A stretch of DNA of 64,000 nucleotides, taken from NCBI GenBank assembly GCA_019677205.1, contig JAAMXY010000487.1:62001-126000 (forward strand), given 5' to 3'. Position numbers and translations under genes: made by a program. Within the stretch, counting starts at the first letter, position 1, and each line of letters starts with the position of its first letter. Source of the DNA: Pinguiococcus pyrenoidosus (Eukaryota > Sar > Pinguiophyceae > Pinguiochrysidales > Pinguiochrysidaceae). Under the pieces are notes generated by a model. That model did not search any database. It was not told the DNA's origin and was given only the letters and a program-made list of their open reading frames with translations. This document shows positions 1-64,000 of the stretch, in pieces.

Positions 1-684
1 ACGAGCTATCCTGCCAAGCCATCTCCCCAGCATTTGCTGGAGCTCAGTCGCGAGAGGATTCACCACGAGTACGGCGAAATCATGGCGAGGGAGGAGTTCT
101 TGAAGGGGATCTTGTGCGAGCAGCGCAGGATCCAAAGGAACACCCAGAACAAGCGCCCCGCGCAGGTGCCCGAAGACGGACTTGAGTTCACCCTGAATCG
201 GACGATGCACGAAGACCACCTCCGTGAGCAGCGACACGATCTGGACCTAGAGGACTTTGCTTTGGTGCGCTGGCGGAAGAGAACCCTGTCGGGTCTGAGA
301 CTCGCCGGCTCCACGTCCTTCGCGGTGGCGTCCAACAAGCGGACCAAACTGACTCCCGAGGAGCACAAAACCACAATAGAAACCGCCCAAGCTCTGTCGC
401 AGAGGCGGCAGAAGCTGAACGAAGCGTACAATCGACTGCAGCAGCTTGCCGCCAGCAACAAGCAGGACCAGAACCGGGATCCGAATGCGCCGAGCCCGGA
501 GGACGGGAACCAGAAGCGAGTCAGCAAAGACCGAGTGAGCCTTGGGCGGCTCGTGAGCTCGGAGGCCAAGGGCCCGATGAAGATCACCGTGGAGGACGTC
601 GTTAGAGTCACGCGAGGGAAGCCCATAGCGGAGAAGGTGGCACAAGCGGCGTGGAGGTTGAGGCAGAATGACGGCAAGACGTGA
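1..684 (+). CDS. 3' end of a charged nuclear-type protein (partial; possibly TAF4-like)
   Basis: The reading frame is open from the first base of the window to a TGA at 682-684, so this is the last exon of a gene that begins upstream. The visible 227 residues are rich in Arg, Lys, Glu and Gln and probably form helices or coiled coil. The last 25 or so residues (ITVEDVVRVTRG...AWRL) have the spacing of the C-terminal helix of the TFIID subunit TAF4, where a basic stretch is followed by V-x-x-x-D-hydrophobic and a final hydrophobic helix. That resemblance is short and the rest of the protein gave no recognisable family, so TAF4 is only a possibility. No internal intron is needed. Confidence 0.5.
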   Translation, partial: TSYPAKPSPQHLLELSRERIHHEYGEIMAREEFLKGILCEQRRIQRNTQNKRPAQVPEDGLEFTLNRTMHEDHLREQRHDLDLEDFALVRWRKRTLSGLRLAGSTSFAVASNKRTKLTPEEHKTTIETAQALSQRRQKLNEAYNRLQQLAASNKQDQNRDPNAPSPEDGNQKRVSKDRVSLGRLVSSEAKGPMKITVEDVVRVTRGKPIAEKVAQAAWRLRQNDGKT

Positions 685-1078
685 TCCTGATGTTGAACGT
701 CGCGGGCACTCGAAGAAGAGAACAGATCCAAGTCGGTCCAGATGGACATCTGCTCGTCTCACGCAATCCACCTATCTTCATGCTGCAGCATGGAGAGAGA
801 CCGTGGAACTTCACTCCTTACGAAGGACGGATGCCCGCCCGTGCTCATCTTGCCTTGCAGATGCAAGGAAACTACGGTAGGATTGCAAACTGCAAACGTC
901 TATTCGCCAGACACGAACGGTGGCTATCCTGTTTCATTCCTCCACTCCAAGCAAAAGCTACAAGTATAGCTTTTCCGGACTGGCGTGCCCTCGACGCTCC
1001 ATGTCAAGCTGCAGGCAGTCCAAGGGTCTATACCACTGTGCGCGGAGGCCGCGCGTCTGTGCTGCCTCATGCGGTGTG
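685..1078. other. Tail-to-tail spacer, no gene supported
   Basis: This 394 bp stretch separates two convergent genes. One frame is open through most of it, but its translation looks like no family and has no splice sites linking it to either neighbour. It is probably 3' UTR sequence of both genes. Confidence 0.5.
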
Positions 1079-2743
1079 CTAGAGGATGAACTTCCGGAAG
1101 TCCTCCGGCGAAGACAGCAGGTCGCCCACCTTGACGCGCACCCGCTCAGCGTCTATCACCACGTCCGTGCCCGGATCCATGTCGGGGGCGTCGAAGCTGA
1201 TGTCGTCCACGAGGCGCTCGATGACCGTCTGCAGCCGACGGGCTCCGATGTTCTCGACCTCGCGGTTGATCTTCGCCGCCGTCCGCGCGATCTCGCGGAC
1301 CGCTTCGTCTTCGAAGATCAGGCTCACGCCCTCCACCGCGATGAGCTCTACTTGCTGCCGGATGAGGTTGTTGATGGGCTCCGTGAGGATTCGGTACAGG
1401 TCGTCCTCGGTGAGCTCCTTCAACTCGACGCGGATTGGAAGGCGCCCCTGCAGCTCCGCCAGCAGATCAGACGGCTTCGCTTGATGGAACGCGCCGGACG
1501 CGATGAACAGAATGTGGTCCGTGTTTACATTGCCGTACTTCGTCGACACGGTGGAGCCCTCTATGAGGGGCAGCAGATCCCGCTGGACCCCTTCGTCCGA
1601 GGCGTCTGCGCCTCTACTGTCTCCATGGCTACAGATCTTGTCGATCTCGTCGATGAAGACAATCCCATCTTCCTCCGCACTCTTGATCGCCTCGCCAACG
1701 ACGTCCGTGTTGCTGCTGAGCTTCTCCATCTCGACTTCCTCAAGGATCCGTCGCGCCTCGTGCACCTTCATCTGCTTCCGTTCCATGCGGCTGCTCGGTC
1801 GTGAGACCAGGCGCAGAAGGTCCTGGACGTGCATGGTGAGGTGCTGATTGTCCAGCCCGCCGACGCTCTGCCGTCCCGAGGCGAAGCCGGCCGGGATGTC
1901 GATGGAGACGTTGTAGTCCTCAAGCTCGCCGTTCACCAACAGGTCGCGCCAGTCCATCTTCTCGCTCTCCTTGAGCTTGGACCCCAGAAGCGCGCGGTAG
2001 ATCTTGTCGGTCACCGTCTTGTTGATCTGCTCCTGGTTCTCCTCCATCTTCCGCTTCTTCACGAGGCTGATGCTGCTCTCGACAAGGTCTCGGATGATGG
2101 AGTCGATGTCCCGGCCGTGGAAGCCAACTTCGGTGAACTTCGTCGCCTCGACCTTGACAAAAGGGGCGTCACTGAGCTTGGCAATGCGCCTCGCGATCTC
2201 GGTCTTGCCGCAGCCTGTGGGCCCGATCATGAGGATGTTCTTCGGCACCACCTCGGTCCTCAAGTCCTCCGGCAGCTGGTGCCGTCTCCAGCGGTTCCGC
2301 ATCGCGATGGCCACGGCTCTCTTGGCTTCCGCCTGGCCCACGATGTGCTGGTCCAGGTGGATGACGATGTCCCGAGGCCGGCCGAAGCTGCGTATCTGCA
2401 GCCATGCGAAACCCGCCGTCAGCACCGACGCGGAACCTGCCGAAGATCTCCGAAAAGCAACAAAGCAAGCTGGCAACCCATCGACAGTATCTTGGCCTCC
2501 CACTCTTCAGCTCTGTCCCTTCACCGCTCTAGAGAGACCCTTCCGGCTTTGCACCAGAACCCCCTCTTCCACACGCAGAGGACCGCGGAGCGCCCCTTCT
2601 CGCAGCCCTTCCGAGGCCTCCGGCAGTTGTTCAACATCCTGGAAAGGGCCTCACCTCTTTACCCGAGCCGTCATCCAGCGCCCTGCCACCCAGCGGAGGC
2701 AGCCTTTGCTGCATGGACGCCTTGGTCGACAGCGCACGCGCAT
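1079..2743 (-). CDS. hslU: HslU, ATPase subunit of the HslVU (ClpYQ) protease, mitochondrial
   Basis: AAA+ unfoldase that feeds proteins to the HslV peptidase; in eukaryotes that keep it, it works in the mitochondrial matrix. Exons (minus strand) are 2743-2655 and 2447-1079, giving 485 residues. The Walker A motif GPTGCGKT lies near residue 105, Walker B is VFIDEIDK, and the I-domain region follows Walker A. The C-terminus ends in FIL, like bacterial HslU, whose tail docks into HslV. The large exon has no usable ATG before the conserved N-terminal region, so an upstream exon is required. The chosen ATG gives about 30 Arg-rich residues that suit a matrix presequence, and both splice sites are phase 2. 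Another ATG at 2714, spliced to a different acceptor, is possible. The gene is head to head with ARP2. Confidence 0.88.
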
Positions 2744-3290
2744 GCGCGCCGGGACGCAGGCGCCTGAGCGCGAACCCGGCTCGCATGTCCGCGCTTCCTT
2801 TCGGCCTCCCGAAGAGCGCGCTTTGTCAACGCGGTTTCACCGCGGATTCTCCGCGCTCCGCTTCGCCAGCAGGTACCTGCGGTATCTCACAATCCGTCCG
2901 GAGCCGACGCGCGCGAATCACGACGCGTCTGGCGCCACAAAGTCAGCACCGCCGCCGAGGCGGCGCTCGGCGCCACATGCGGGCGTATCTCCAATATCGC
3001 TTCTCGGTACTCCATATCGCTTCGGGGTCCAAGAATCCAAGAATCGTATCTTTCACGATCGATCCCTTTCGATTATCGGTTTTTGAAAGACTTCCTTGGA
3101 AGGCGGAAGGAACACTGGGAATGAAAGGTCGGGACTGTTGACTTCGGGAGTTTCCTGCACTGGCGCGTCGGGCACTTCGCGCGTCTTTTGGTGGCCGAGA
3201 GCGCTTTGCGCGCTTGTCGCTGCTGTAAGATACAGCTGGAAGACGCGCTGGCAAGCTGACGCGCCGTGGAAGCTCCGGGCGCCACGCACC
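2744..3290. other. Head-to-head intergenic region (shared promoter of hslU and ARP2)
   Basis: The 547 bp between the two start codons must hold both promoters and 5' UTRs. The sequence is GC-rich apart from a patch near 3040-3090. I saw no clear TATA box or repeat. The ARP2 frame stays open upstream of its ATG to 3096, but that extension is not conserved-looking. Confidence 0.5.
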
Positions 3291-4481
3291 ATGGGGCTGC
3301 AGGACTTAACGCCGATCGTTTGTGACAATGGCACGGGCTTCGTGAAGGTGGGCTACGCCGGCGAGAACTTCCCGCGCTACATTTTCCCCTCGCTGGTGGG
3401 GCGGCCCATGCTGCGCGCCGACCAGGTGGTCGAGTCGGACGTGGTGCTCAAGGACATCATGTGCGGCGACGAGGCGGCCAAGGCCCGCCACTCTCTGGAG
3501 GTGGAGTATCCGGTGGTGGAGGGCATCGTGCGCAACTGGGAGGCCATGGAGCACCTGTGGAACTACACGTTCTTCGAGCGCATGCAGATCGCCCCGTCGG
3601 AGTACAAGGTGCTGCTCACCGAGCCGCCGGGCAACCCCACTGCGAACCGACGCAACATCATCGAGCGCATGTTCGAGACCTACGGCTTTGGCGCCTGCAA
3701 CGTGTCCATCCAGGCGATGCTGACGCTCTACGCGCAGGGCCTGCTTACGGGTGTGGTGGTGGACAGCGGCGACGGCGTCACGCACTGTGTGGCCGTGTAC
3801 GATGGCTTCGTGCCGCAGACGCTCATCCGGCGGCTGGACATCGCGGGGCGCCACATCACCAAGTACCTCATCAAGCTCATGCTCCTGCGCGGCTATCCCT
3901 TCAACTCCACCGCGGACCTGGAGACCGTGCGGCAGCTCAAGGAAGCGCACTGCTACGTGGCGTACGACATCCAGGCCGAGCGGAAGCTGTCGCGGGACAC
4001 AACGGTTCTCGAGAGGAAGCACACCCTGCCGGACGGCCGCATCGTCACGTGCGGCAGGGAGCGCTTCGAAGCGCCGGAGGCCATGTTCAATCCGTCGCTG
4101 CTGGACTGCGAACAGCGCGGCATGAGCGACATGATCTTCGAGATGATCCAGGACGCCGATATCGACACGCGTCCGGAGTACTACAAGCACATCGTCCTCA
4201 GCGGCGGGTCCAGCATGTACCCAGGCCTGCCCACCCGGCTAGAGAAGGACATTCGGTCGCGCTACCTCCGCGAGGTGCTCAACGGCAACGAAGATCGCCT
4301 CAAGAAGTTCAAGATCCGGATCGAGGATCCGCCCCGGCGGAAGCACATGGTCTTCCTCGGTGGCTCCGTCCTGGCGGACTGCCTGAAGGACCGGGACCAG
4401 TTCTGGGCCACGAAGGAGGAGTACGACGAGAAGGGTCTAGACAGAGTGATTGACAAGATCTCGGGAAAGACCAGCGCGTAG
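3291..4481 (+). CDS. ARP2: Actin-related protein 2 (Arp2/3 complex subunit)
   Basis: One of the two actin-like subunits of the Arp2/3 complex, which nucleates branched actin filaments in the cytoplasm. This is a single exon of 396 residues, close to the usual Arp2 length. The N-terminus [16 protein letters not shown] is the actin-family phosphate-binding loop in its Arp2 form. Other Arp2-type blocks are LLTEPP, the second phosphate loop [10 protein letters not shown], and [18 protein letters not shown] near the C-terminus. The start was set at the ATG directly before this conserved N-terminus, which sits in a good context (gcaccATGg). The frame is open further upstream but the extra residues match no Arp2. 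It is tail to tail with the MINDY-type gene, about 100 bp away. Confidence 0.95.
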
Positions 4482-4584: not shown

Positions 4585-6328
4585 CTAAACCGACGGGATG
4601 CCTGCAATCGGATCAAAGCTGACAACAGCTCGTGGCCACTTGGTGTGGAGAATGCTAACCATCTTCGGCGCGTGGCGGCGGCTTAGCACAGCCTTCTGAC
4701 CATCCGGAAGGTCATCGAAGTGAAGCCAGATGCTGAAGCCGGCAACGGCCGGCGCAAGGCCGCAGGTCTTGCAAATCACGCTGCCAGCTTCATTCTCACC
4801 GAAGATCATCGTCTGATAGCGGGTCCTGTAGCAGGACGCGCACCTCCACGGCTTCGTTGGATCCGGCCCTTCCGGTGGCAGCTTGTACAGCATGGGCAAG
4901 GGCATCCAATCGGGCCGTGACTGGCCGTCTACTGCATCCTCCGGCAAGGCCAGCACCACCTCATAGCGCCACGTCTCCCACTGGCCCGGCCTGTCGAGCT
5001 TGTCTTGACGATGTGCCTGTATCACTGAATCTATCTCCGAGCCGCTGGGATGGTCTACCACGGGCTTGTAGTGCGGCTTCTCCGCGAGGACGTCTGCTGC
5101 CGGCGGCGCCGACCCGTTCACCGCATGCACCTTGAAGATCGTCGCCTTGGGTCCCCCCGGCGAAAGGCCATTCCAGTGCACCAGCTCGAACTTGCCGGGC
5201 GAGGGGGACAGCACCTGCTTGTCGGCGTCCTCGTCCGCGTGGAACACGAGAGTGAAATGCGTGCTGCTGTGGATGATCCAGACGGCCAGGGGAGGCGTCT
5301 TCAGCTCGTCAGCGAGGGGCAGCGACGTCCCTCCCTCGGCAGCCTCGTACTCGGGATACTCCAGCGAGCTCAGCATCCCGATGGGCAGCGTGTATCGGCT
5401 GCCCTCGTGCCAGCTGGTCTTCGCGCCGCCGATGGGCGAGTACGCGCTCACGTTCCCATCCGCATGCCCTCTCATCATCAGTGCCAGGAGCTCCGAGGTG
5501 CACAGCGCGTGCGGGGGTACGATGAGAGGCGGCTCGCCGCCCGATCGGCGGGCATCCGCGTACACGTTGTCGACGCCGCGGGTCGCGACGCAAGAGTACA
5601 CGATCAGAAGCAGTCCGCCGGGGGCCTTGAAGGCCGGCAGAAGCTCGGCCACCGCCTTCTCGGTGTCGGGCCCGACGGGATGCACGCGGCTCACGACGTC
5701 CAAGCGCTCTCGGCCTTGCGAAGCGCCCCAGGAGAAGAGCGTCACGGCGCCCGTGTTGGACGCGGCCACGGTCTGGAAGATCGCCACCAGCGCCATCGCG
5801 AGGTCCGCGTCCCCCGCCTGATACTGCGGGCCCCAGCCCGGCTTGAGGCGGCACTGCGCGATCAAGACGGCGTTGATCACCGCCAGCACGCCGCAGGGGC
5901 CATTGGCAGGTTGCAGGAGGCCCACGCCCGAGAACGGCATTTGGGGCTCCTGGAGAAACGCCAGCGGCTGGATCTCCCAGGACCGAGCCGGCTCGGCAGT
6001 GCCCCAGACCACCTCGTACCAGGGCGGCAGACCGCTGCTGCGCAGCGTGGACATGGAATCCGCCCGCGGCTCCTCGAAGCTGGCCTGTGCAGCGCGGAAC
6101 TCACACACCACTGGCTGCTGCGCCTCTGCGCCGGAGTCGAAGAACAGCGTGACGGCCGTCTCCAAGTTGCCATCCGCGGCGGCTAGCAGCTGCTTGGCCA
6201 CGGGCTCGCTGGCGCTGGTGATGCTAACGAAGGTGCTCAGCAGCTCGGACTCGCTCCACGAGCTTTCCGCCTAGGGACCGCTTCGTCAGGGACAGTCCGT
6301 CCCTCGAGGATCGCATGGCACTCACCAT
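4585..6328 (-). CDS. MINDY3: MINDY-3-type deubiquitinase (DUF4205 / FAM188A family)
   Basis: Predicted Lys48-specific cysteine deubiquitinase. Exons are 6328-6326 and 6270-4585; the first coding exon is only the ATG, followed at once by a GTGAGT donor, and the 55 bp intron ends in CCCTAG. The product has 562 residues. The N-terminus (about 8-45) is a UBA-like helical segment (ESELLSTF...NLETAVTLFF). The catalytic core has the MINDY cysteine motif NGPCGVLAVINAVL (Cys near residue 127) and, further on, the histidine motif STHFTLVF. The C-terminus carries two CxxC pairs (CASC, CKTC) that could bind zinc. Without the tiny first exon the frame has no ATG upstream of the conserved UBA-like region. 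Confidence 0.86.
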
Positions 6329-6638: not shown

Positions 6639-8267
6639 ATGAAGGAGGTGGGACGGAGGTTTCCAAAGTATAACGTCTACGATGCAATTAGGGAGCTGTA
6701 CTTCGGATTGGTTCAACCAGAGCTTCCCGCGCTTTTCTTCAAACGAAGCGGTTTCCGTTTCGCTGCGAAGTTGTTGCTTCTGCGCAGCGACGCCTCCTGC
6801 AAACGAGTCCGCGCCCAGATGATGAGTCTGTCTGTGGACCCACTTTGCGAGCCAGATGGCGACGCGCGCAACAGCGATGTGCAAGACTGGCTTGACGCGC
6901 TTTTCCCCCTTGGAGACGTCGGAGACTCCCTCAACCATTCCCTTCTCGCCGCGGATCTGGAGCCGAGCAAAGCGGCTCCACCAGCCACCATGACGCCCCC
7001 CGAGCAGACTCGACCGAATGCAGAGGGTCGGCGGGAAGCCTCCTCTGGACGGACCCGCAAGACGAAAGACTCGGGCAAGCAGCGGCTAAAGGTTCGGCTG
7101 AAGCCCTGGACGCGCCAGGTGCACGACAAGGTCGCGCAGCAGAAGCTGCAGCCGCGGATCGACCTCAGCATCCCTCGGGACAAGCCGGTGCGGAAGATCT
7201 TCCGCCGGCTCGGTGAGAAATGGGAGGCCGTTCTCAGCTTGGAAAGAACGTTCGTGGAGCTCATCGCCGGCAAGAAAGAGGAGGCCAAGCCGCGGATCTG
7301 GCGCGAAGCCGACGTGTCGACGATGGTGGTGGAAGACGTGATTCGGACCTGCCCGGCGTGTCTGCAAAGCAAGAAGGACGGCTCCTCGGTGCTGGAGCTC
7401 TACTATCGATTTGCCAGTCACACCACGCACGCCAATGGCGAGCTGCGGGATCCCTTTGCAGGGGACAAGGAAGTCAATTTTGGGGAGAATACATGCTTAG
7501 AGATCATGAAGGCGACGTCGGCAGATGCCACCAACGGAGCGGCCGGACGAGGAGAATTGGCGTCTCCAGCAGGGTCTCGGGAGGTCAAGGCTGTTTGGAC
7601 TCCGGGGTCGGACGCGGGGCTGGAATCGCCGCCTGGCCCGCCGACTCTGGAAGTGTTCTCAGAGGAGAAGCCGAAAGCTCCGACTAGCCCTGGGGTGCGT
7701 TCGGCTTTGGGAGAGCGAGGCAAGGAAGGCGATGGCCCAAAAAGCGCCGAGGACCGTGTAAATAGGAGCAGTAGCGGCAAGAGAAAGCGCCGTGCTGGGG
7801 ACGTCGATGGTTTGGAGACGAGGAAGAGGCAGCCGAGCGACAACGGCAGCGATGCAGGCGTCTTGGGCCTTGATAGACCGGCTTCCTTGAGTGAGAAACG
7901 GGCAGGTCCCACAAAGGACCAGGCCGAGAAAGGCGGCACCATCAATCCGAGAGGAACGTGCCGGATGGCGAAAGCGCACAGGAGGAGCTTCCGCAGGATA
8001 CGACCAACCTTTGTGTGCTCGATTCCAAAGGTCTACATGGATCGCGCTCGTACGTTAATGAAGGCGGGGTCCCAGTGTGACGGGTTTTCTAAGGTGAGCT
8101 GGTGCCCTCCCGTGGCGCCAGCCTTCGGGCATGGCACCGCATGCGGGCAATACTTTCTGGGCCTGCCGGCTGCGGAACATGGCAGAACTTCGAGAGCGAG
8201 ACCGCTTGCCAAGAAACTGGAGGATGCGGTCTTTGGAGGTGGACGCAGACGACTGGTTGGAGAATAA
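6639..8267 (+). CDS. Cramped/TKI1-like nuclear protein
   Basis: The continuous frame encodes up to 542 residues. Around residues 145-200 the pattern K-x-RLK-x-x-P-W...K...P-x-IDLSIPRDKPVRKIFRRL-x-x-KW resembles the conserved domain of Cramped (animals) and TSL-kinase-interacting protein 1 (plants), which are chromatin-associated. A second possible conserved piece follows (VSTMVVEDVIRTCPACL...LELYYRF). The C-terminal third is low-complexity, rich in Lys, Arg, Glu and Pro with basic clusters typical of nuclear signals. The start is uncertain: the first in-frame ATG is at 6639 but the ATG pair at 6819 is equally plausible, because the first 60 residues look like translated leader. The end may be spliced: a GTGAGC donor at 8093 and an acceptor near 8188 would change the last residues. 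Confidence 0.55.
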   Translation: MKEVGRRFPKYNVYDAIRELYFGLVQPELPALFFKRSGFRFAAKLLLLRSDASCKRVRAQMMSLSVDPLCEPDGDARNSDVQDWLDALFPLGDVGDSLNHSLLAADLEPSKAAPPATMTPPEQTRPNAEGRREASSGRTRKTKDSGKQRLKVRLKPWTRQVHDKVAQQKLQPRIDLSIPRDKPVRKIFRRLGEKWEAVLSLERTFVELIAGKKEEAKPRIWREADVSTMVVEDVIRTCPACLQSKKDGSSVLELYYRFASHTTHANGELRDPFAGDKEVNFGENTCLEIMKATSADATNGAAGRGELASPAGSREVKAVWTPGSDAGLESPPGPPTLEVFSEEKPKAPTSPGVRSALGERGKEGDGPKSAEDRVNRSSSGKRKRRAGDVDGLETRKRQPSDNGSDAGVLGLDRPASLSEKRAGPTKDQAEKGGTINPRGTCRMAKAHRRSFRRIRPTFVCSIPKVYMDRARTLMKAGSQCDGFSKVSWCPPVAPAFGHGTACGQYFLGLPAAEHGRTSRARPLAKKLEDAVFGGGRRRLVGE

Positions 8268-13171: not shown

Positions 13172-13200
13172 TCTTGCTGATTGGGTGGGGTGTCTTAAAG

Positions 13201-31975: not shown

Positions 31976-32060
31976 GACGTCTGATGCGCCCAATCGGCAG
32001 TCACGGAGGATCGACCGTCGACTGTCGCTCAGTCAAGCGACGCTTCGGGCGCCAGCGGTC

Positions 32061-45813: not shown

Positions 45814-45858
45814 AGGAAGGTGGAGGAAGGTTGAGGAAGGCGAAGGAAGGGAAGGTTG
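45806..45858. repeat. GGAAGG-type purine-rich repeat
   Basis: Repeated (GT/GC)GAAGGAAGG-like units just after the stop codon of the TPR gene, presumably 3' UTR. Confidence 0.75.
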
Positions 45859-53285: not shown

Positions 53286-53892
53286 GTGATTCCTATTCAA
53301 CAGCCATGCAATGAGGTGACGCGCGTCCAGAGCGGCTGTGGCGCCCAAAACGCGAGAGATCCGCGCTTTGTCCTTTCTGCGGTTTTTTGAATGGGAGCGG
53401 ACGGCCCACAGGTATAACGCTTGGGTTCGACACAGTTTCGATCCTGATACAACATGGCGCCGGGCAACATACGTCTGTGATTGGCTGCATCCGCAAAAGA
53501 TGGTTATACAAAAATTTAAAGTTACATGATCCATGGTGAATAGCATGGGATTTACAAGAAATTTAATTAAAAAATAGAAAAAACATCAGGAAGGAGTTCA
53601 TAAAAAAAATAAATTTGTACTACTCGAGAAGAAGTTCCGGCTGGAACCACCCGGAACCTTTATTTTGATCCTTCGCGAGCCACTTTAAAACCCATTCTAC
53701 AATCTCCGAGGATCTTGTACTTCCCGCCATACACGCGGCGCACAAGCAGCGGCAGCTTCACTTCCGCCCCGCGCCCCCCAAGCCTCCTTCTTCGCGCGCA
53801 TTTTCGTGCCTCCGGGGGACCTGTTTTGCCGTGCATCTGCCTGTGCCGCCTTTGCGTGCTGCATGTTGTTCGTGTGAGAGCGGCTGTGAGCG
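53286..53892. other. Head-to-head intergenic region (IFT80 / TBC1D13)
   Basis: 607 bp. The centre (about 53500-53660) is very AT-rich, with runs of A, against a GC-rich background, and is the most likely promoter core. Confidence 0.45.
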
Positions 53893-56352
53893 ATGGACGT
53901 CCCCACGGAAGCGGCACCGGCGACGGGGCCGCCGTCGCAGCTGCCAGCGGATCCATCGCTGCGCGAAACAGTGACCGTGCGCGTGCCAGGACGGGGGCCT
54001 CTGTACATGAAGCTGAGGCGCTTGACGAGGCTCAAGGTCATTGTCGTGCACTGCTTCCAGCCGAACGCCGACGGCTCTCCGGGTCCGGTGGAGCAGGCCT
54101 GCATCAACGCCGCGCACGACCCCACCGTGGGCCTTCAGGTGCAGCCTGGATGGCTTCTGGTGGACGTGAATGACGAGGATGTGGACCACGACGATTTCCA
54201 TGGCACCATCGCGAAGATCAAGGAGGAGCAGGCCACGGCCCCGAGGCGCTTGACCTTCTGCCGGCCCGCGGCCGACTCGGACGTGGCGAAGATCTACACG
54301 GAGACGGCTTCCCAGCGCGCCATGCATCGCCTGCGGCAGTCCAGCAAGTACGCGGCCCTGCTGGGGCGGGAGCGGCTGGCGGCGGCGAAGAAGATGCTGT
54401 ACAGCGGCGACGGGGAGGTGCAGGACACGGAGCAGATCCACAAGTCGCGGGTGGAGGCCTTCTCGGATCTCATTTTGGAAGAGAACATCGACCTCGCCGC
54501 GCTGCGGGAGATGACGCTCCAGGGTGTGCCGGAGCAGGGCGGCTTCCGGCCCATCGTGTGGCGCCTGCTCTTGGGCTACCTCCCGCCAGAGCGCGGGCGA
54601 TGGAGGGAGTTTTTGAAGGAGCAGCGAGCCTTGTACCGCACGTTTTTGAAGGAGGTGGTCCCACCAGAGGCTGTCGCCGCGCAGGCAAAGGCGCTGATGC
54701 GGGGCGGTCCGAAGGATCCGGAGCTTTACAGGCGCGGGGAGAATAGCTTGTCGCAGGAGGAGAGGGGCACGATCCTTCCCGAAGACGCGGACGACAAGAA
54801 GAAGACGATGTGGGATTCGTACTTCAAGGATGCCTTCCTGATGGAAGAGATCGTCAAGGACGTCGTACGGACCTATCCGGATCTGCACTTCTACACCAGT
54901 GGGATGGACTCCGCGAATGGCACGCCGGAGGCGCTCGCAGAGGTCTGCGAGAGGTTTCTGCAGAGTATCGTGGACATGGGGTCCTCGGAGTCGCACTACT
55001 CGGCACTCGCTCGGATTCTGTTTGTCTACGCGAAGCTGAATCCGGGGATCAAATACGTCCAGGGCATGAACGAAGTGTTAGGAACGCTGTACTACGTGCT
55101 GGCAAGGGACCCCCTTTCCACCGACTTGGCCCCGTCAATTGCCGATCAAGAGCAAGACCAAGAGCAAGAGCAAGACCAAGGCCAAGACCAAGACCAAGAG
55201 CAAGACCAAGACCAAGATCAAGAGCAAGCGAAACAACGTCAGAACGGCGCGGGCGAGGGGAAAGCGACCAGAAAGGACGGCGGTCGTGCGGGTACCAAGC
55301 CGGAGCTTGGCCTGGGCCGACAGAGTTGGGTGTTCTCCGTGGAAGCGGATGCTTTCTTCTGCTTCTCGATGCTGATGGCGGAAGTTCGCGACCTTTTTAC
55401 ACATCAGTTAGATAGTAGCGAGCAAGGCATCATCGGGAAGATGGAGACGCTTGGGAAGGTGCTCCACCGGGTTGATCCCGTCCTTGCCAAGCACCTGCTA
55501 GAGAACCTGCACTTGGAAACGAGCCTGTACAGCCTTCGTTGGTTCACGACTCTGCTTTGCCGGGAGTTTCCTCTTCCGGACACCATCCGCCTCTGGGACG
55601 GCCTCTTCTCAGAGGACCCCGTTCGGCGCATGGATGCGGTGTGCTACCTCTGCACGGCGATGGTCGTGATGCAGCGCGAGCAGCTTCTGGAGGGAGACTT
55701 TGTGGTCTGCCTCCGCATCCTGCAGAGCTACCCTCCGACGAATGTAGAGGACCTGATCGACCTCTCGGAGCGCTTGAAAGAGAAGGATCGCAGGATCCTC
55801 CGGCGGCGAATCCAGCAGAGCCGGATGAACGAGAACATCGCGAAGTCGCTGACCACTGCCGAGAAGTTCTTCTTCGGGGACGAGCTCCAGTCCCAAAGCG
55901 GGAAAGACCCGGAAGAAGGGACTTCCGTGGACGGTGCTGCGTCCGACGTCTCTCGGCAGGAGCTGGAGTCCTCTGCCAACGCGGACATTCGAGCGGAAAT
56001 TGCAGAAGGCTTTCGAGCAGGCTTCCAGAACTTCATGACCGCGGTCCGGAGGACGAATCAACCACCGGAAGAGGAGGCTTCGCAGGCCGTAGGGGAGACG
56101 ATCATCGACTTCCGTGAGCACCCTGTCGACGTCAAGGGAATGCAGGGCAAGGGGGAGCGCGTGCGCGTCACGTTGACGCCTGTGGAGGCCGCGGCAGCGA
56201 CGCAGGCAGGGGCAATGCCCTATTCCGATCCGGCCGCTTCACAGGTGCCGATAGAGGAGTACAACGGAGCCGCTAGCCCAGCAACATCCGAGCCTCTCGT
56301 AGTTGATGACGCCCAGCGTGACAGAGGCGAGGGAGACGTCGTGGCAGGATAA
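53893..56352 (+). CDS. TBC1D13: TBC1D13-like Rab GTPase-activating protein with PDZ-like N-terminus
   Basis: Stimulates GTP hydrolysis by Rab GTPases (human TBC1D13 acts on Rab35). The single exon encodes 819 residues. Residues 35-115 look PDZ-like (GPLYMKLRRL...GLQVQPGWLLVDVNDEDVDHDDF...TFCRP). The TBC domain runs from about 215 to 610. It shows LREMTLQGVPEQGGFRPIVWRLLLGYLP, the Arg-finger motif IVKDVVRTYPD, the Gln-finger KYVQGMNEVLGTLYYV, EADAFFCFSMLMAEVRD and SLYSLRWFTTLLCREFPL. Between the Gln-finger helix and the EADAFF helix sits a Gln/Asp/Glu run coded by a CAAGAC-type repeat. The C-terminal 150 residues are disordered and acidic. Both catalytic finger residues are present, so it should be active. 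Confidence 0.88.
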   Translation: MDVPTEAAPATGPPSQLPADPSLRETVTVRVPGRGPLYMKLRRLTRLKVIVVHCFQPNADGSPGPVEQACINAAHDPTVGLQVQPGWLLVDVNDEDVDHDDFHGTIAKIKEEQATAPRRLTFCRPAADSDVAKIYTETASQRAMHRLRQSSKYAALLGRERLAAAKKMLYSGDGEVQDTEQIHKSRVEAFSDLILEENIDLAALREMTLQGVPEQGGFRPIVWRLLLGYLPPERGRWREFLKEQRALYRTFLKEVVPPEAVAAQAKALMRGGPKDPELYRRGENSLSQEERGTILPEDADDKKKTMWDSYFKDAFLMEEIVKDVVRTYPDLHFYTSGMDSANGTPEALAEVCERFLQSIVDMGSSESHYSALARILFVYAKLNPGIKYVQGMNEVLGTLYYVLARDPLSTDLAPSIADQEQDQEQEQDQGQDQDQEQDQDQDQEQAKQRQNGAGEGKATRKDGGRAGTKPELGLGRQSWVFSVEADAFFCFSMLMAEVRDLFTHQLDSSEQGIIGKMETLGKVLHRVDPVLAKHLLENLHLETSLYSLRWFTTLLCREFPLPDTIRLWDGLFSEDPVRRMDAVCYLCTAMVVMQREQLLEGDFVVCLRILQSYPPTNVEDLIDLSERLKEKDRRILRRRIQQSRMNENIAKSLTTAEKFFFGDELQSQSGKDPEEGTSVDGAASDVSRQELESSANADIRAEIAEGFRAGFQNFMTAVRRTNQPPEEEASQAVGETIIDFREHPVDVKGMQGKGERVRVTLTPVEAAAATQAGAMPYSDPAASQVPIEEYNGAASPATSEPLVVDDAQRDRGEGDVVAG
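55145..55231. repeat. Hexanucleotide repeat CAAGAC/CAAGAG within TBC1D13 coding sequence
   Basis: About 14 units of CAAGAC, CAAGAG or CAAGGC in one frame encode a Gln-Asp/Glu repeat of about 28 residues in a loop of the TBC domain. Confidence 0.93.
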
Positions 56353-56472: not shown

Positions 56473-57375
56473 CTACCGTCTGGTGAGCAAGTCCTCGAGG
56501 GCGGGCTTGGCTACTCCAAAGCGCGCATAGTCGATTTCGTAGATCTTGTAGGCCTCCTCATATATCTCTTTGGTGTACCAGCCCGTATGGTTGGTCTCGT
56601 GCCGTGTCACGTCGCCAGCCACGCGGGTGAAGCTATCCGCCGCTGCCTCCAAGCCTGCCGGATCCAGCGTCACCGGCCTGAGCAGCTGAAAGATCTCCTC
56701 CCGCATCGCCTCCTTGTCGCAGCCGCTGTGCACCATGAAAAGCGCCAGGTCGTACACCGGGCCCCAGAAGTCCAGGCCGCAGTCTTCGGACTGGACGGAC
56801 CAGTGCTGGTCGAATTCGCCGGCGTTGAGCGCCACGTGCAGCCGATGGACGAACTCCCGGAACTCCATCTTGGTGAAGCGCTCGACCGGCACGTTGTGCA
56901 GCGCTTTGGAGTACAGGCCCAGCTGCGCCTTCGAGTCCTCGGCCTGGTGGATCTTGTCCAGGAAGCCGGATAGCAGGCGTTCCAGAGGCTCTCGCAAGAT
57001 CACCACTTTCTTCCACGACGGATCCGTCATCATCTCCATGGCGCGCGTGGCGCCATAGTGCTTCAGCTGCGACAGCCCCCCGATCTTGCTGCCCATGAAG
57101 AAGTACGGATTGCGCTGCCAGTCCGGGAAGCCGGCCAGGCGGCGGAACAGGCGCAGCCAGCCGCTGGAGCCGTTCTTGGCGACCTTGCAGAAGATGAGCT
57201 TATGATCCGGCACGACGAACGGCTCCAGCCACTTGCTGCTCTTGGCGGTCTCGGCGTACAAGGTGGCGTTCCCATAGAACTCGCCCATGTTAAGCTTCTG
57301 GCACGAGCGCGGGAAGTCCTCCGACGCCGCCAGGCCACTCATGGCCAGCAAGCTCACGAAGAGCCACTGAATCAT
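56473..57375 (-). CDS. Secreted/Golgi carbohydrate sulfotransferase (Sulfotransfer_2 family)
   Basis: Transfers sulfate from PAPS to glycans in the Golgi lumen. The single exon encodes 300 residues. The N-terminus MIQWLFVSLLAMSGLAASEDF is a signal peptide or anchor. The 5'-phosphosulfate-binding motif is IFCKVAKNGSSGWLRLFRRL and the 3'-phosphate motif is VVILREPLERLLSGFLDK, matching the HNK-1 and chondroitin sulfotransferase group (KVACTNWK and REPFERLVSAY types). Two N-glycosylation-type sequons occur (NAT, NHT). The frame is open upstream of this ATG but without another ATG, and that part does not suit a signal sequence. It may act on sulfated cell-wall or mucilage polysaccharides. Confidence 0.82.
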   Translation of the reverse strand: MIQWLFVSLLAMSGLAASEDFPRSCQKLNMGEFYGNATLYAETAKSSKWLEPFVVPDHKLIFCKVAKNGSSGWLRLFRRLAGFPDWQRNPYFFMGSKIGGLSQLKHYGATRAMEMMTDPSWKKVVILREPLERLLSGFLDKIHQAEDSKAQLGLYSKALHNVPVERFTKMEFREFVHRLHVALNAGEFDQHWSVQSEDCGLDFWGPVYDLALFMVHSGCDKEAMREEIFQLLRPVTLDPAGLEAAADSFTRVAGDVTRHETNHTGWYTKEIYEEAYKIYEIDYARFGVAKPALEDLLTRR

Positions 57376-57894
57376 TCTGGGAAGTACCACGGAGGCTTCG
57401 GATACCCGGGAACTGGACGCCGGCCCAGATGGACCAGTCTCGGCGCCAAGAGCCACGATCCCGAACAGAGCAGCTGACGAACTGATGAAGCAGGGACGGC
57501 GGGAGCACCTCCGTCAGCCAAATCCGGAAGAACAGAAAGGGTTCTGCGGGTTCTGCGGGTTCTGCTCCGAAGACTGAAAACTGGAAATGGGAGACGGATT
57601 GGTACTGTACTTAGATACAGAAAAGGGTACTATACTTTTATACCATGTACTTGGTATTGGGTACCAGACGGAATACTGAAAAAGACAAAATAACATAAAA
57701 TATACTTATTTAATATTGGATATGAGCGTTTCATATTTTTAAAAATATTACTATTCACGTGAAACAAACATAAATAAATCTTATTTACCGCTAAATATTG
57801 ATATAGTTATCCCTCGACTTTGGGAAGCTCTCGTTTTTCGCCCAATTTTCGCTGAAGTCTCACCTGGCCGCCGCTCTGCGCCGCGCGTCCCAGG
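57376..57894. other. Head-to-head intergenic region (sulfotransferase / DDX56)
   Basis: 519 bp. It contains three tandem GGGTTCTGC units at 57539-57565, several GGTAC words at 57598-57665, and a strongly AT-rich stretch at 57665-57810. The AT-rich part probably includes the promoters. Confidence 0.45.
57539..57565. repeat. Three perfect tandem copies of GGGTTCTGC
   Basis: A 9 bp unit repeated exactly three times in the region upstream of the sulfotransferase gene. Confidence 0.9.
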
Positions 57895-60215
57895 ATGTCG
57901 AATGCGGGCCCGGAGACGTCGCCGACGTTTGCCACTAGCGACTGGGGCCTGGACCCGCGCCTGCTCAAGGCGGTGATGCGCCTGGGCTTCGTGCGGCCCA
58001 CCTTGGTGCAAAGCCAGTGCATCCCGCTGGCGTTGCAAGGCAAGGATCTGCTCGTGCGGGCGCGCACGGGCAGCGGCAAGACGGCTGCATACGCCTTGCC
58101 AGTGCTGCACAAGCTACTGGCTGCCGCAGGCCAGCGGGCGGGACCCCGGGCGGTCATCCTGGTACCAACTCGCGAGCTGGTGGAACAAGTTCGGCGGCAG
58201 CTGGAGGAGCTGTTGTACTTCGCGAGGGGGGATCTGGGCGTCCAGGGCCTTGCGGGCGACGACACCGCAGTTCAGGCGGCGCGCCTGCGTGACCAGCCGG
58301 ACGTGCTCGTGGCGACGCCGGCCAAATTGGCGCAGCACCTGGAGAGCGGCAACGTGGCCGGAGGCCTCGCCGACGTCCTGTGCTTTGTGGTGGACGAAGC
58401 GGACTTGGTGCTCAGCTTCGGCTACGTGGATGACGTGAATCGCGTCTGTGCGAGCTTGCCCAAGATCTGCCAGGGCTTCCTGATGTCCGCGACGCTCAAT
58501 GAGGAGCTCCAGCGCCTGAAGCGCGTGGTGCTGCACTCGCCGGTCGTGCTGAAGCTGCACGAAGGCCCACAAGACGGTCGGCTCGCCCAGTACTTCGTGG
58601 ATGTCCTCCCGGGCGACAAGCTTCTGCTGATCTACGTCTTCCTGAAGCTGGGCGTGCTCACCGGGAAAGGACTGTTCTTCGTGGACAACGTGGAGAACTG
58701 CTATCGACTCAAGCTCTTCCTGGAGGCCTTTCACATCCGTTCTGCAGTGCTGAACGAGGAGCTACCGTTGAACTCGCGGCTGCACATCCTGCAGGACTAC
58801 AATCGAGGCGTCTTTGACTTCCTCATTGCCACCGACAGCGCGGTCGACGGAGATGCCGACGGCGGTAGCGACAGCGAGGAGGACGATCGTGAGGAAGATG
58901 ACGTCGAGCAAGATGATGTGGAGGAAGACGACGTGGAGGAAGAGGCAGGAACTGCGGGGGCAGGTGGCGAAGAAGACGGCGATGAAGACAACGACGATGA
59001 AGGCAACGACGATGAAGAGGGAGATCCGGAGGAAGTGGAGGAAGCGGAGGAAGATGAGCATGGCAACGACGAGGCGGAGGCGGAGGCGGAGGACGAAGAG
59101 GACGGCGATGCAGAAGAGAACGAAGGAGTATCAGTATCAGACGAGGAAGAAGGCTCGGAAAACGAGGAGGTCGAAGAGGATGTGAGCGAATCTTCAGCAA
59201 AGCGAAGACGGCGAGAGGCAACAAAAGCGGCAGCTCGAACTCAGGACGGCCGCACCGAGAAGAAGAGGCGCCGGCAAGAAGATGCGGGCGTGTATGGGGT
59301 CGCTCGCGGCGTGGATTTCCGCGAGGTCGACTTTGTGGTCAACGTGGACATGCCGCGGTCGGCGGCGTCGTACACCCATAGGATCGGCAGGACCGCCCGG
59401 GGTGGCAGATCGGGAACCGCCTTGACGCTTGCCTGCTTGACAGACGCGGTGGATGCGACCCTCCTCAAGGAAATCCAGGAGTCCCAGCCTCCCCTGCCCG
59501 TAGCGCACGCGAACCAGGATGCGCCGCTGGTGAACATGGACCTGACAAGCTCCATGACCGAGGTGCCCGAGGCGTTTCAGAAGCAGCCTTCCGCACTGCC
59601 CTTCGACGTGAAGGAGATTGCCACCTTTCGGTACCGGGTGGAAGACGTCAAGCGCTCCGTGACGGCCATTGCCATCAAGGAAGCCCGAGCGGCGGAGCTG
59701 AAGCAGGAGATGCTGAACAACGCTAGACTACAGAACTACTTCGAGGAGAATCCGCAGGACCTGCAGCTTCTGCGGCACGACAAGACCATCCTGCATCCAA
59801 CTCGAGTTCAGGACCACCTCAAGCACGTTCCTGACTACTTGATCCCAGATGGCATTGAGGTGGGCGCAGACCCTTCTCAGCGGAGGCGAAAGAAGAGAAA
59901 GCATCGCAGCCGAGGCGGGGGAGGCGGCTCTCAGGACCCGCTGATGAGCTACAATGGAGCCGGCGCGGACAAGAGCAAAGCTGCCGTCGATGACAGGTGA
60001 GTGGAACGTTTTTTTGTTTTTGCGGCAAAGACCTGGTCGCAATGCCTTGACTCAAGTTATGGTCTGGCAGGGTATTCGCATCCACAAAGCGCCTCGGGCG
60101 GAGCACAAGTCGGAGGAGAAAATGGAAGGAGCGGCACAAGAAGGGCGAGTTCGCCACCAAGACTGCAAAGGACGAGAAGAAGTCGCGGAAGAAGTCGGCT
60201 CTCGGAGGCTTCTAG
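57895..60215 (+). CDS. DDX56: DDX56/Dbp9-type DEAD-box RNA helicase
   Basis: Nucleolar helicase for large ribosomal subunit assembly. Exons are 57895-59996 and 60071-60215, giving 748 residues. Motifs in order: Q-motif ([17 protein letters not shown]), I (ARTGSGKT), Ia (PTRELVEQV), Ib (VATPAKL), II as DEAD ([13 protein letters not shown], a form typical of Dbp9), III (SAT), V (DFLIATD) and VI (HRIGRTARG). Between IATD and [15 protein letters not shown] there is an acidic Glu/Asp insertion of about 150 residues; Dbp9 and DDX56 carry a shorter one at this place. The C-terminus is basic ([25 protein letters not shown]). The second exon is required by a GTGAGT donor in phase 2 and gives the expected Lys-rich tail. 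Confidence 0.92.
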
Positions 60216-60386: not shown

Positions 60387-61436
60387 CTACTTTAGGATAC
60401 CTCGGATGTCCTCCCGCACGTCCGCGCTGCCATTCTTCCGCTGCCATTGCATAAACACGCTGAAGAGCTGCCGCTGGAGGCTTTCGGAGGACGGAATCGG
60501 CCCGCCCTCGGCCTCTAGCTTCTTCAGCTTCCCTAAGAGCGACCGAGCCTCGTTGCTCGCCGCGGCAAAGGCACCTCCCGCCTTGGAGTAAGCGGTCTCT
60601 ATTGCTTCTGTCGCGGAAACCGCTTGGGCGCCGTCTTTTCCGCTCTCTATTTCAAGCTGCGTTGCGTCCTCCCGCCCATTTCCGTCACCCAGCGGGGCTT
60701 GCGACGTCGTGAGCCCCTGCCGCAGGGCTTCCCACTGGACCGCTTCGTCAGTGCACTTCTTCAGCGTCTCTTCCAGCACGCTCTCTTGCCGGGACAGGCG
60801 CCGGATCTCTTCCTGGACCGTCTCCTCTTCATCCGTCTGCCCTTCCAGCTCCCTTGCCACCGCCTCTTGGAAGGCCGTGAGGATCCGCAGGAGACTGGAG
60901 CCGAGATCCTCGTGCGTATTCGCTAGCGTGGTTGCAATTACTTTCGACTCCAAGGACACCGCCGTCTCCACAGCGCTGAGCAGCATCTGGATTTGACTAC
61001 CCTGAGGAAGCGCCATGTCGTCTGCAGTTACGTCGGAAGCAGGATACGCGGGCGACTGGCTCTCCTCCTCCACTTCCGCCTCCACTTCCGCCTCCGCTTC
61101 TGCGTCAGTCTGCCTCCGCGACCGCGGCCGGCCTCGCTTCTTCGGGGCAGTTTCCGGCACTCCAGCATTTTCCGCTTCATTTGCTGTCGTCGTCGTCGTT
61201 GTCGACGTCGTCGTCGTCGTCGTCGCCGCCGTCTTGGGAGCTCTTCGCCGCTTGGGCTGCTTCTCGGCGGACCTCTGATTCTCCTTCTCCGAGGTGGTTC
61301 TCTCGCGCCAGACTCGCTTCGGCGACGGCGCGACGGCCGGGGAAACCACGTTGAGGCCGCTGACCGAGTCAAAGTCGATGGTCTCGTGATGTCTTTTTCG
61401 GTTGCCGCGGCTGCGCGTTTGAGTCTTCAATTTCAT
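60387..61436 (-). CDS. AT-hook nuclear protein with poly-Thr tract and coiled coil
   Basis: The single exon from ATG 61436 encodes 349 residues. The frame continues eight codons upstream without ATG. It has a basic N-terminus (KTQTRSRGNRKRHH), then basic KRRRAPK and a poly-Thr run of about 15 residues. An AT-hook (KKRGRPRSRR), an acidic run (EAEAEVEAEVEEE) and a helical coiled-coil region (about 155-330) follow. The AT-hook implies binding to the minor groove of AT-rich DNA in the nucleus. The layout, a DNA-contact N-terminus and helical C-terminus, is reminiscent of kinetochore or cohesin-loading proteins, but no family match is certain. Confidence 0.68.
   Translation of the reverse strand: MKLKTQTRSRGNRKRHHETIDFDSVSGLNVVSPAVAPSPKRVWRERTTSEKENQRSAEKQPKRRRAPKTAATTTTTTSTTTTTTANEAENAGVPETAPKKRGRPRSRRQTDAEAEAEVEAEVEEESQSPAYPASDVTADDMALPQGSQIQMLLSAVETAVSLESKVIATTLANTHEDLGSSLLRILTAFQEAVARELEGQTDEEETVQEEIRRLSRQESVLEETLKKCTDEAVQWEALRQGLTTSQAPLGDGNGREDATQLEIESGKDGAQAVSATEAIETAYSKAGGAFAAASNEARSLLGKLKKLEAEGGPIPSSESLQRQLFSVFMQWQRKNGSADVREDIRGILK
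61182..61236. repeat. GTC/GTT triplet repeat encoding poly-Thr
   Basis: A run of GTC and GTT triplets on the plus strand codes (minus strand) for the poly-Thr tract of the AT-hook protein, with one Ser interruption. Confidence 0.85.
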
Positions 61437-62125
61437 GCCTTTGGCTGCGTCCACGGGCACCGAGCTGCTTGTGCGTGAGAGAGAGCGGTGCGTGTGAGAG
61501 ATGATTTAGGCTCCAAATACTTTAGCTGCCGACTGTTTGGTGGCGTACGTGCTGGATGCTCCGCCTCGGGTGCTGGGCATGATGGGCGATCTGATGCGCG
61601 GGACGCGCCAACCTTACGAACCGCAGTCCGGATTCGGTCCTGGGCCAGCTAAGCCCGCATGCGGAGAAGGTGGTCGAGTGCGGGCGGCCAGCGAGCGAGG
61701 AAGAGGCCGTTGTCCTGTTTTGAGAAGCAATCTTCCGAAAGCGCGGGAAAAGCTGGGGTTCAAATCCCTCCTAACAGTTAGTTGGTCAATTCATCACGTG
61801 TTCAGCATCAGCAATCTTTTGTTCGGTAACAGTATCTTCACAGAAATCCCACGGAGCACAAGCGTTAATAGCAAAAAGGTATTTTTCCAGGCCTATCAAA
61901 AACGAATTATTGAGAATATAAAGTATGGTTACAAATACGGTTACAGTGATAAAGGTTTCAAGGTTGCTGACGTACGCTTTTTGGATGCAGTTTTTAATCA
62001 AGCCTAAAAATCCCTCGCATAAGATCTAACAGTCTGCGGACAGTCTCATGTAGAAGTTCCTGCGCACGCAAGCTCGCGAAAAAACCTCCTTCGCCGCACG
62101 TGGTGGCCGCGTAGTTTACTCCATC
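61437..62125. other. Head-to-head intergenic region (AT-hook gene / lumen protein)
   Basis: 689 bp. The half next to the lumen gene (about 61760-62030) is far more AT-rich than the rest of the window. An open plus-strand frame runs to 62007 but its composition is not protein-like. No tRNA could be folded here. Confidence 0.45.
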
Positions 62126-63177
62126 ATGAGAGCTGTGCTGCTGCTCAGCCTTGTGGCCTCGACTCGCGCGCTTCTCGTGGGCGTCCGTCGCACGCGTGCG
62201 GCGGTGGCGCCGCTGGAGATGTCCGTTTCGGGCTCCCGCCGCAGTTTCCTCGGCGGGGTTGCCACTTTTACCGGCGGTTTGTGGCTGGGCCAGCAAAGCG
62301 CTGCAGCCTTCGACCTCAAGCCGGGCGGCGGTCGGGCTGGCGAGAAAATTCGGAGGATCGCGCGAATTTTGGACGACCTGCAGCGCGACATCTTCGAAGA
62401 AGACTGGACCTTCATCAGCACTTATCCAGTTGAGCTCCGTTCTTTCGTCCCGATCTTCACCAAAGTACGTTTCTCGGGATGTCCTACGAAGCCTTGGAAC
62501 TGTGGATGCTCATGACTTGGTCTTTGCAGTACACGGACACGGCGTTCCCCAGTGAGAGCGCCATCGACACCCAGACCCGATTCGCCCTGCGGTATGAGGT
62601 GGGCCGCTTCTTCGGTGCCGTCGAGCGCCTGAAGCGCGCAGGTAGGATACGCTTATGGCGGACCCAGCTGGACACAGCGCGTCCCGGCAGAAGCCTCACC
62701 GAAAACTTGGCCAAAAAAAATCTCCAGTGGACTCGAGGGATATCGGCGAAGCGGAGGCTTCGTTCGCGCAGATTAGCATTAGCTTCGACAGATACCTCAA
62801 GGCGGGCAATCTGTACGAGCAGTACGATCCCATCGTGTCGACTGAAAAGTTCTACGAGGGCATCCCGGATAAGGACTTGGTCTTTGTGCCGCCGAGCGCA
62901 GAGACGCCCAAGACCCGAGATCCCGTGCTGCTCATCGCGGGGCCTGACAAGGGCAAGACTGGCCTGCTCATTGGCATCGGTACGTTGCAATTGCCTCTGC
63001 CTTCCTCTGACGCAGGTCCTCAAGAGCCTGACGGTGACCCTGGCCGCTTTGCTTGCAGAGCAATCCGACCCGTCTCGAGGAAAGAAGGGCATTGTGAAGC
63101 TCGATTCGCTTGCCACTGGCGTCAAGGAGATCAAAGTGATGCCGATGTCTCTCATCGCAAAGCGCATTATGAAGTAA
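62126..63177 (+). CDS. Thylakoid-lumen protein with tripartite targeting and KOW-like C-terminus
   Basis: Exons are 62126-62464, 62530-62641, 62728-62979 and 63059-63177, giving 273 residues. The N-terminus is a signal peptide (MRAVLLLSLVASTRA), a short Arg-rich plastid leader, then a twin-arginine signal (SRRSFLGG, a hydrophobic run and SAAAF), so the mature protein should reach the thylakoid lumen of a complex plastid. The mature part begins with helices (IRRIARILDDLQRDIFEEDW, FALRYEVGRFFGAVERLKRA, EASFAQISISFDRYLKAGNLY), a PsbQ-like arrangement. It ends with a KOW-type beta segment (DPVLLIAGPDKGKTGLLIGI...GIVKLD...EIKVMPM). All four junctions keep frame. The function is unknown; a photosystem-associated role is inferred from location. 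Confidence 0.82.
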
Positions 63178-63538
63178 CTTGCTCCTTCACTTCTTGGTCA
63201 GCCGTCTTCTTCCTCAGTCCGGAGAGATCTCTACGGGAAAAATGCAGCAGCTCCCACCGCCCAGCACGGCATGCACCGTTCGTCGCCCCTCGCTCCGCGC
63301 ATGCGCTCTTTTCGGCCGTTCCCGAACGAGTCACACATGCGGGCGTATTTGATTCGCGCCGCTTCGGCCGTCCAAAGCGGTTCTGCCGCGTGAAAAAAAA
63401 GACAGAAAAGATACTCGAGAGCATGGATACTCGCCTGCGATAAGCTTGGTAAAGCCACAGATCTGTGTGAGAGAAAGCGCCGACCAGAGTGGACGGTAGT
63501 GTGGCGCTCCGCGGCCGCAGCCTGGGTGGGAGAAGCAA
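63178..63538. other. Intergenic region between two same-strand genes
   Basis: 361 bp between the lumen-protein gene and the carboxypeptidase start. No gene was supported. Confidence 0.4.
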
Positions 63539-64000
63539 ATGTCTCTGAAGATGCATCTGCTCTGGGCCGCCGTCGCGGCTCTCCAGTTGGGCAGCTCGCG
63601 CGCACTTCGGCGCGTTGCGTCCCGCGAGCCTATGGGGAGCTCAGCTGAGGCTGCTGCGGAAGATCTGGAGGTGGTGGATACACAGGCTGCGGCGCTTTTT
63701 CGGGGGGGGACCCACCGACAGCTGTCCATCGACGCCAGTGCGGACGACGCGACCTCTCCGAACGACCACTTGGTGACGGATCTGCCCGGTGTACCCAGCA
63801 GCTACACGGCGAGCCAGTGGGCGGGGCGCTTGACCGTGGACGAGGCGCATAAGGGGCGGCTGTTCTACTGGCTCTTCGCGCCCAAGAGCGCTGACAGCGC
63901 CACGCTGGAGTCCGCGCCGCTCGTCATCTGGCTCAATGGAGGGCCTGGCTGCTCCAGCATGGACGGGCTCTTTCTGGAGAACGGGCCCTTCCGAGTGAGT
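63539..64000 (+). CDS. Serine carboxypeptidase (peptidase S10), 5' part, cut by window end
   Basis: The visible 152-154 codons start with a signal peptide ([19 protein letters not shown]), so the enzyme is secreted or vacuolar. After an acidic propeptide-like stretch comes the family start ([21 protein letters not shown]...[10 protein letters not shown]) and the oxyanion-hole motif [24 protein letters not shown]. The catalytic Ser, Asp and His lie beyond the window. The last bases, CGA followed by GTGAGT, form a good donor, so the exon probably ends at 63994. Two in-frame ATGs (63539 and 63551) are possible. A run of eight G occurs at 63703-63710. Confidence 0.88.

Follow-up and report, generated by a model that had tools for sequence, protein, structure and literature searches.

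Why should the genes along a 64,000-base stretch of the genome of the alga Pinguiococcus pyrenoidosus switch strand at nearly every step? The stretch (the window; bases 62001-126000 of contig C210, JAAMXY010000487.1, which is 139,761 bases long) belongs to a nuclear genome of 23.7 Mb in 768 contigs and has a GC content of about 60%. A two-strand hidden Markov gene finder, trained on 275 kb of the same genome, places 29 genes in the window, the first and last of which cross its edges, and 24 of the 28 neighbouring pairs lie on opposite strands (P = 9.0e-5 against a coin flip). The answer that we favour, with a probability of roughly 0.6, is that the genome may be organised mainly as divergent gene pairs, each on one shared promoter core region.

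The initial annotation had described near-perfect alternation, with 26 opposite-strand pairs of 29 over 30 genes and a chance of about 8 in a million. The pattern holds and 26/29 does compute to 7.6e-6, but the count supported here is 24/28. A thirtieth gene, which would fit 26/29, corresponds to a minus-strand open reading frame (ORF) at 48243-48983, within the gap 47616-49271; it has no Pfam match and is not called by the finder, and the strongest opposite-strand coding signal there, a segment of 55 codons with a score of 9.5, falls in the upper part of the range of the other tandem (same-strand) gaps. Because coding and family support are unconvincing, this ORF was left uncounted. Dropping genes with a coding score below 20 leaves 20 opposite pairs of 26. 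Between coding ends, the 12 head-to-head gaps of the window measure 491-1388 bp and the 12 tail-to-tail gaps 52-683 bp, compared with the 0.2-1.2 kb and 50-630 bp given at first.

Alternation extends beyond the window. In 211 kb outside it, from five contigs, 64 of 82 neighbour pairs are on opposite strands (P = 1.7e-7), and a window-specific effect can be set aside (24/28 inside vs 64/82 outside, Fisher P = 0.58). The outside sample comprises the remainder of C210 from base 2001, the whole of C81 and C124 and parts of C19 and C5; the draw was non-random, C81 and C19 having been picked for actin-family matches and C5 and C124 by number. Over the total of 275 kb, about 1% of the genome, 88 of 110 pairs are opposite (44 head-to-head, 44 tail-to-tail and 22 tandem), or 87 of 109 when the first gene at the open left end of the C210 stretch, whose reading frame is unsettled, is dropped. 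An orientation near 50% genome-wide, named at the outset as the outcome that would undo the claim, is not what this sample yields. Alternation is confirmed as real and as common to the window and the rest of the sample.

The gaps between genes differ in length according to orientation. Head-to-head gaps (n = 44) have a median of 734 bp and a minimum of 258 bp; tail-to-tail gaps (n = 44) have a median of 166 bp and a minimum of 6 bp, with one quarter below 92 bp; and tandem gaps (n = 22) have a median of 912 bp. Start codons are at most 1000 bp apart in 32 of the 44 head-to-head gaps and farther apart in the other 12. Two independent promoters per divergent pair predict a tandem gap of half the sum of the other two medians, 450 bp, which the observed value exceeds by 450 bp (95% interval 204-625). 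One shared region predicts about 817 bp (a head-to-head gap plus half a tail-to-tail gap), from which the bootstrap difference is 81 bp (95% interval -198 to 315). Tandem gap length fits one shared promoter region per divergent pair. Gap lengths do not separate this from an avoidance of read-through, because insulation against read-through would lengthen tandem gaps too.

Base composition sets the head-to-head gaps apart. A scan of the 275 kb that was blind to annotation found 42 AT-rich islands, 35 of them in head-to-head gaps, which make up 36 of the 275 kb; three others lie in tandem gaps, one in an intron and three at the ends of stretches, beyond the outermost predicted genes, with none in tail-to-tail gaps and none in coding exons. 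A gap-wise scan at a lower threshold detected islands in 30/44 head-to-head gaps (8/12 in the window), 3/22 tandem gaps (Fisher P = 5e-5) and 3/44 tail-to-tail gaps (P = 2e-9), and exactly one island in 20 of the head-to-head gaps. The islands measure about 16-210 bp. AT content in head-to-head gaps peaks at mid-gap (0.524, vs about 0.44 over most of the remainder), and the richest 60 bp falls in the middle third in 26 of the 44 (P = 4e-4). First-order Markov shuffles that preserve gap composition give 17 islands in head-to-head gaps where 46 are seen, and 2.0 in tandem gaps where 3 are seen. When gaps are matched for length, the AT maximum of the head-to-head class (31 gaps) is still above that of the tandem class (12 gaps; P = 0.0035). 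Head-to-head gaps thus form a class of their own.

A model that accommodates these results would have two mostly unrelated genes start from either side of a single control region that spans about 0.3-1.7 kb between the two start codons. Some two-thirds of these putative control regions carry at least one AT-rich stretch, in the majority of cases single and near the middle, amid DNA of about 60% GC. The AT-rich stretch may keep nucleosomes away and act as one shared bidirectional promoter core, in which case cutting or inverting within the core would harm two genes at once. Rearrangements that break only outside the core would preserve the + - + - order, and co-regulation of the partners would be unnecessary. 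Since a divergent pair is unchanged by inversion, alternation would follow from the pairing, and separate selection on tail-to-tail arrangement need not be invoked.

Several results weigh against organisation around shared cores. Lowering the gene penalty brings the tandem median down to 534 bp, under the head-to-head median of 734 bp, which weakens the argument from gap length. Over the 300 bp nearest the start codon, head-to-head and tandem gaps show no difference in AT maximum (P = 0.19); one emerges farther out (P = 0.03 at 450 bp and 6e-4 at 600 bp). At the lower threshold, 14 of the 44 head-to-head gaps have no island and 10 have two or more; 19 of the 22 tandem gaps lack one. When weak genes are dropped, islands appear in 7/26 tandem gaps and the contrast falls to P = 0.002. 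A search for a consensus motif within the islands found none; what they have in common is composition. Nor can an island simply be equated with the promoter, because tandem genes also need promoters yet mostly lack islands. Their lack is a puzzle: either the promoters of tandem genes are of another kind, or the islands have some other function, for instance as replication origins. The initial annotation had also proposed obligate bidirectional promoters; the mostly central islands and the gap lengths do speak for control regions shared head to head, but with 22 of 110 pairs in tandem, 'obligate' is too strong. We put forward only tentatively the wider proposition that the unit of this nuclear genome is the divergent pair on a central AT-rich core, with about four-fifths of genes in such pairs, tandem genes as exceptions mostly without a core, and gene order evolving by the shuffling of pairs whose orientation is inherited via the core.

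If the islands were replication origins or other chromosome elements lodged in divergent gaps, as in fission yeast, the alternation would be separately caused. Origin-bearing gaps in Schizosaccharomyces pombe do favour the divergent orientation (59% vs 28-37 expected, in the text available of PMC7574548), and the islands here are specific to divergent gaps, not to all promoter-bearing gaps, and have a composition without a consensus. According to the same text, however, the yeast bias arises mostly from the greater length of divergent gaps, whereas here length-matched gaps still differ; the AT-rich regions of S. pombe are also much longer (500-1000 bp), the present islands fall short of an origin-type length, and they are densely spaced at 42 in 275 kb. 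We consider this explanation unlikely. Less probable still is selection against same-strand read-through, in which upstream transcripts would enter the next promoter and the few tandem pairs would need long insulating gaps. Tandem gaps do exceed half of the summed head-to-head and tail-to-tail lengths, but their length comes only to about that of one head-to-head gap and half a tail-to-tail gap combined. Avoidance of read-through does not predict a central AT-rich island in head-to-head gaps, and the often tiny tail-to-tail gaps suggest that abutting or colliding transcripts are tolerated.

The alternation itself could have been inflated by annotation, through spurious introns that fused same-strand neighbours and spurious small genes predicted on the unoccupied strand. 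The gene calls are throughout the predictions of a custom script from sequence alone, which is the weak point of the method; the finder combines a codon-phase Markov coding model, splice-site and start matrices, and introns with a length penalty. Its first version did fuse same-strand neighbours through long false introns in three cases (26518-37023, 44926-47615 and 62479-66649), and long introns were then penalised because such fusion would inflate alternation; the rate is still 87/109 with the penalty in place. Three finder settings, each with and without weak genes, give 88/110, 92/123, 90/115, 76/102, 74/101 and 74/100 (73-80% opposite), the rate falling to 73-75% when weak genes are dropped, and the strictest filters give 66/94 (70%). 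These filtered rates tend to be low, because the loss of a real small gene in the middle converts two opposite pairs into one false same-strand pair. Pfam matches on the called strand support 20/29 genes in the window, at a cut-off of E<=1e-3. Outside it, where every fourth gene of a list of 86 was taken, with the last two steps omitted, 15/20 have a Pfam match on the called strand. An artefact of annotation is, on this evidence, very improbable, and divergent pairing on shared promoter cores is the explanation carried forward here.

The features of the window are as follows ('finder' marks genes supported by the gene finder; AT-rich islands are from the annotation-blind scan).

1-684, +, gene 1, 3' part (begins left of the window); finder, no Pfam match
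1079-2786, -, AAA+ ATPase; PF07724, E 7.5e-32
2787-3290, head-to-head gap of 504 bp with no AT-rich island above threshold
3291-4481, +, actin-related protein 2; PF00022, E 4.7e-96, matches named Arp2
4585-6328, -, MINDY-3/4-type deubiquitinase; PF13898, E 7.8e-20
6822-8267, +, gene without clear family; finder
8796-10967, -, gene without Pfam match, coiled-coil look by eye; finder
11318-11372, AT-rich island, head-to-head gap
11502-13171, +, CCR4-NOT subunit 11; PF10155, E 1.2e-20
13670-14317, -, gene without Pfam match; finder
14960-15000, AT-rich island, head-to-head gap
15706-16484, +, gene without clear family; finder
17168-18480, -, WD40 protein; PF00400, E 6.3e-37
19316-21628, +, RCC1-repeat protein; PF00415, E 1.3e-70
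22038-25738, -, SMC protein, reads like SMC6 (our own reading); PF02463, E 4.1e-14
26074-26174, AT-rich island, head-to-head gap, single match in the genome
26518-30999, +, WD40 protein; PF00400, E 1e-36
31974-37023, +, myosin, same strand as the preceding gene; PF00063, E 2.5e-178
37295-37606, -, small gene, weak Trm112p-like match; coding score 13, PF03966, E 0.012, below cut-off
37806-37870, AT-rich island, head-to-head gap, with a smaller one at 37774-37794
38098-39035, +, adenylate kinase; PF00406, E 1.6e-43
39168-41588, -, raffinose-synthase family; PF05691, E 6.8e-83
42542-43396, +, chalcone-isomerase-like, weak; PF16036, E 0.0027, below cut-off
43449-43937, -, COMM-domain protein, gene model probably incomplete; PF07258, E 2.4e-13, coding score 13
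44926-45813, +, TPR protein; PF14559, E 1.4e-13
46164-46241, AT-rich island, tandem gap, among the sample's three tandem-gap islands
46494-47615, +, HEAT/armadillo-repeat (ARM) protein; PF13646, E 1.2e-13
48243-48983, -, ORF unsupported as a gene (see above)
49272-50648, +, DHHC palmitoyltransferase; PF01529, E 2.2e-37
50733-53285, -, IFT80; PF23335, E 1.2e-91
53495-53622, AT-rich island, head-to-head gap
53893-56352, +, TBC RabGAP; PF00566, E 1.3e-26
56473-57375, -, sulfotransferase family; PF03567, E 3.2e-19
57608-57810, AT-rich stretch, head-to-head gap; the gap-wise scan gives two islands
57895-60215, +, DEAD-box helicase with acidic insert; PF00270, E 1.5e-38
60387-61436, -, gene without clear family; finder
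61865-61961, AT-rich island, head-to-head gap
62126-63177, +, thylakoid-lumen-like protein by eye; finder start 62479, first exon by eye, 62126-62464 without Pfam match
63551-64000, +, serine carboxypeptidase, 5' part (continues past the window); PF00450, E 2.2e-20

The four same-strand pairs are separated by the gaps 31000-31973 (WD40/myosin), 45814-46493 (TPR/ARM), 47616-49271 (ARM/DHHC) and 63178-63550 (thylakoid-like/carboxypeptidase). Overlooked opposite-strand genes in the tandem gaps of the sample are mostly unsupported, the best opposite-strand segment scoring at least 12 in 2/22 (16.2 and 14.7); by comparison, the best coding segment on either strand reaches 12 or more in 4/44 head-to-head gaps. 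Introns are short, with a median of 94 bp (133 predicted in the first gene model). No tRNA genes (ARAGORN, bacterial code) and no Rfam families at gathering score were found in the window.

Some of the products merit individual mention. By our own reading, the AAA+ ATPase resembles bacterial HslU/ClpY, with its N terminus extended, and is perhaps organellar. By eye, a short tandem array of an 8-base unit occupies about 43178-43235, in a predicted intron of the chalcone-isomerase-like gene. The TBC RabGAP has an E/Q/D repeat tract in mid-protein, and the DEAD-box helicase a long, very acidic low-complexity insert before the end of its second helicase domain. Outside the window, L020:6045-9461 encodes a phytochrome-like histidine kinase with GAF, PHY, HisKA, ATPase and receiver domains, and L009:8552-10000 a DUF3419 fused to a methyltransferase domain, which is the layout of betaine-lipid synthase.

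The protein matches suggest a stramenopile-like alga. Of the listed matches that name an organism, the leading ones to Arp2 come from Pelagophyceae and Triparma (70-71%) and those to IFT80 from Tribonema and brown algae (50-51%), the latter followed closely by oomycetes and a green alga; the top matches overall among those listed are environmental or transcriptome proteins (83% for Arp2, 80% for IFT80). The alga is probably photosynthetic, because the product of 62126-63177 resembles a thylakoid-lumen protein by eye, a resemblance that no family search confirms.

Two further accounts of the start-side gaps were considered and dropped. For the islands as remnants of mobile elements, the two stretches tested, 57640-57820 and 26060-26190 of the window, each match only themselves in the genome, in a search that skips simple repeats and very common words. 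For a fixed promoter motif, a k-mer analysis of the head-to-head gaps yields modest signals only: CCAATCA occurs in 12/44 of these gaps against 3.7 expected, and CGCGGGAA in 10 against 2.3 expected. The density of CCAATCA per kb is 0.41 in head-to-head gaps, 0.24 in tandem gaps, 0.17 in tail-to-tail gaps and 0.03 in coding sequence. CCAATCA is no specific marker of shared gaps, because the shorter CCAATC is nearly equal in head-to-head (0.77 per kb) and tandem gaps (0.67). NF-Y and E2F are possible readers of the CCAATCA and CGCGGGAA words.

Bidirectional promoters, as described in human, plant, yeast and chromerid genomes, resemble the arrangement seen here in having head-to-head starts, mostly within 1 kb, but they usually involve a minority of genes. 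In human, more than 10% of genes have them, according to one abstract; here the arrangement takes in the majority of genes, often with a central AT-rich stretch. An excess of close head-to-head pairs is also reported for chromerid algae in the text available of PMC4501334. In a 64-species survey, most eukaryotes have about 50% co-directional neighbours, and the accessible part of that source names Thalassiosira pseudonana, Cyanidioschyzon merolae, Monosiga brevicollis and Cryptococcus neoformans as having less random orientation (PMC2871058); these four resemble the present genome in departing from 50%.

The closest parallel is Ectocarpus, also a stramenopile, with a strong opposite-strand tendency and many short divergent gaps. 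In the passages available from one study, divergent pairs account for 61.7% of the genes that flank start-side gaps, pairs less than about 600 bp apart were shown by experiment to share one nucleosome-depleted region, transcript levels of the partners are uncorrelated, and median gaps are 2293 bp for tandem and 409 bp for divergent neighbours (PMC7784034). Partners in the present window likewise look functionally unrelated. The tendency is weaker in Ectocarpus, since the same definition (44 divergent, 22 tandem gaps) gives 88/110 here, and its tandem gaps are far longer than its divergent ones, compared with 912 vs 734 bp here from coding end to coding end (534 vs 734 bp under the other setting). 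The compactness of this genome is a further difference. In Ectocarpus the nucleosome-depleted region was measured; here the AT-rich island in 30/44 head-to-head gaps serves only as a sequence proxy for it.

Divergent pairing is already known, including in a stramenopile, and what appears to be new here is its strength and the presence of a central AT-rich core in divergent gaps specifically. The literature searched, mostly titles and the opening lines of abstracts and not extending to the original Ectocarpus genome paper, contained no report of 70-80% opposite-strand neighbours, though absence is unproven, and none of such a core. With about 70-80% of neighbours on opposite strands and, in many divergent gaps, a core visible in the sequence, a compact algal genome such as this one would allow one to ask whether shared promoter cores constrain rearrangement. 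The same genome would also allow one to ask whether the pattern of Ectocarpus is ancient among ochrophytes and is exaggerated by compact genomes.

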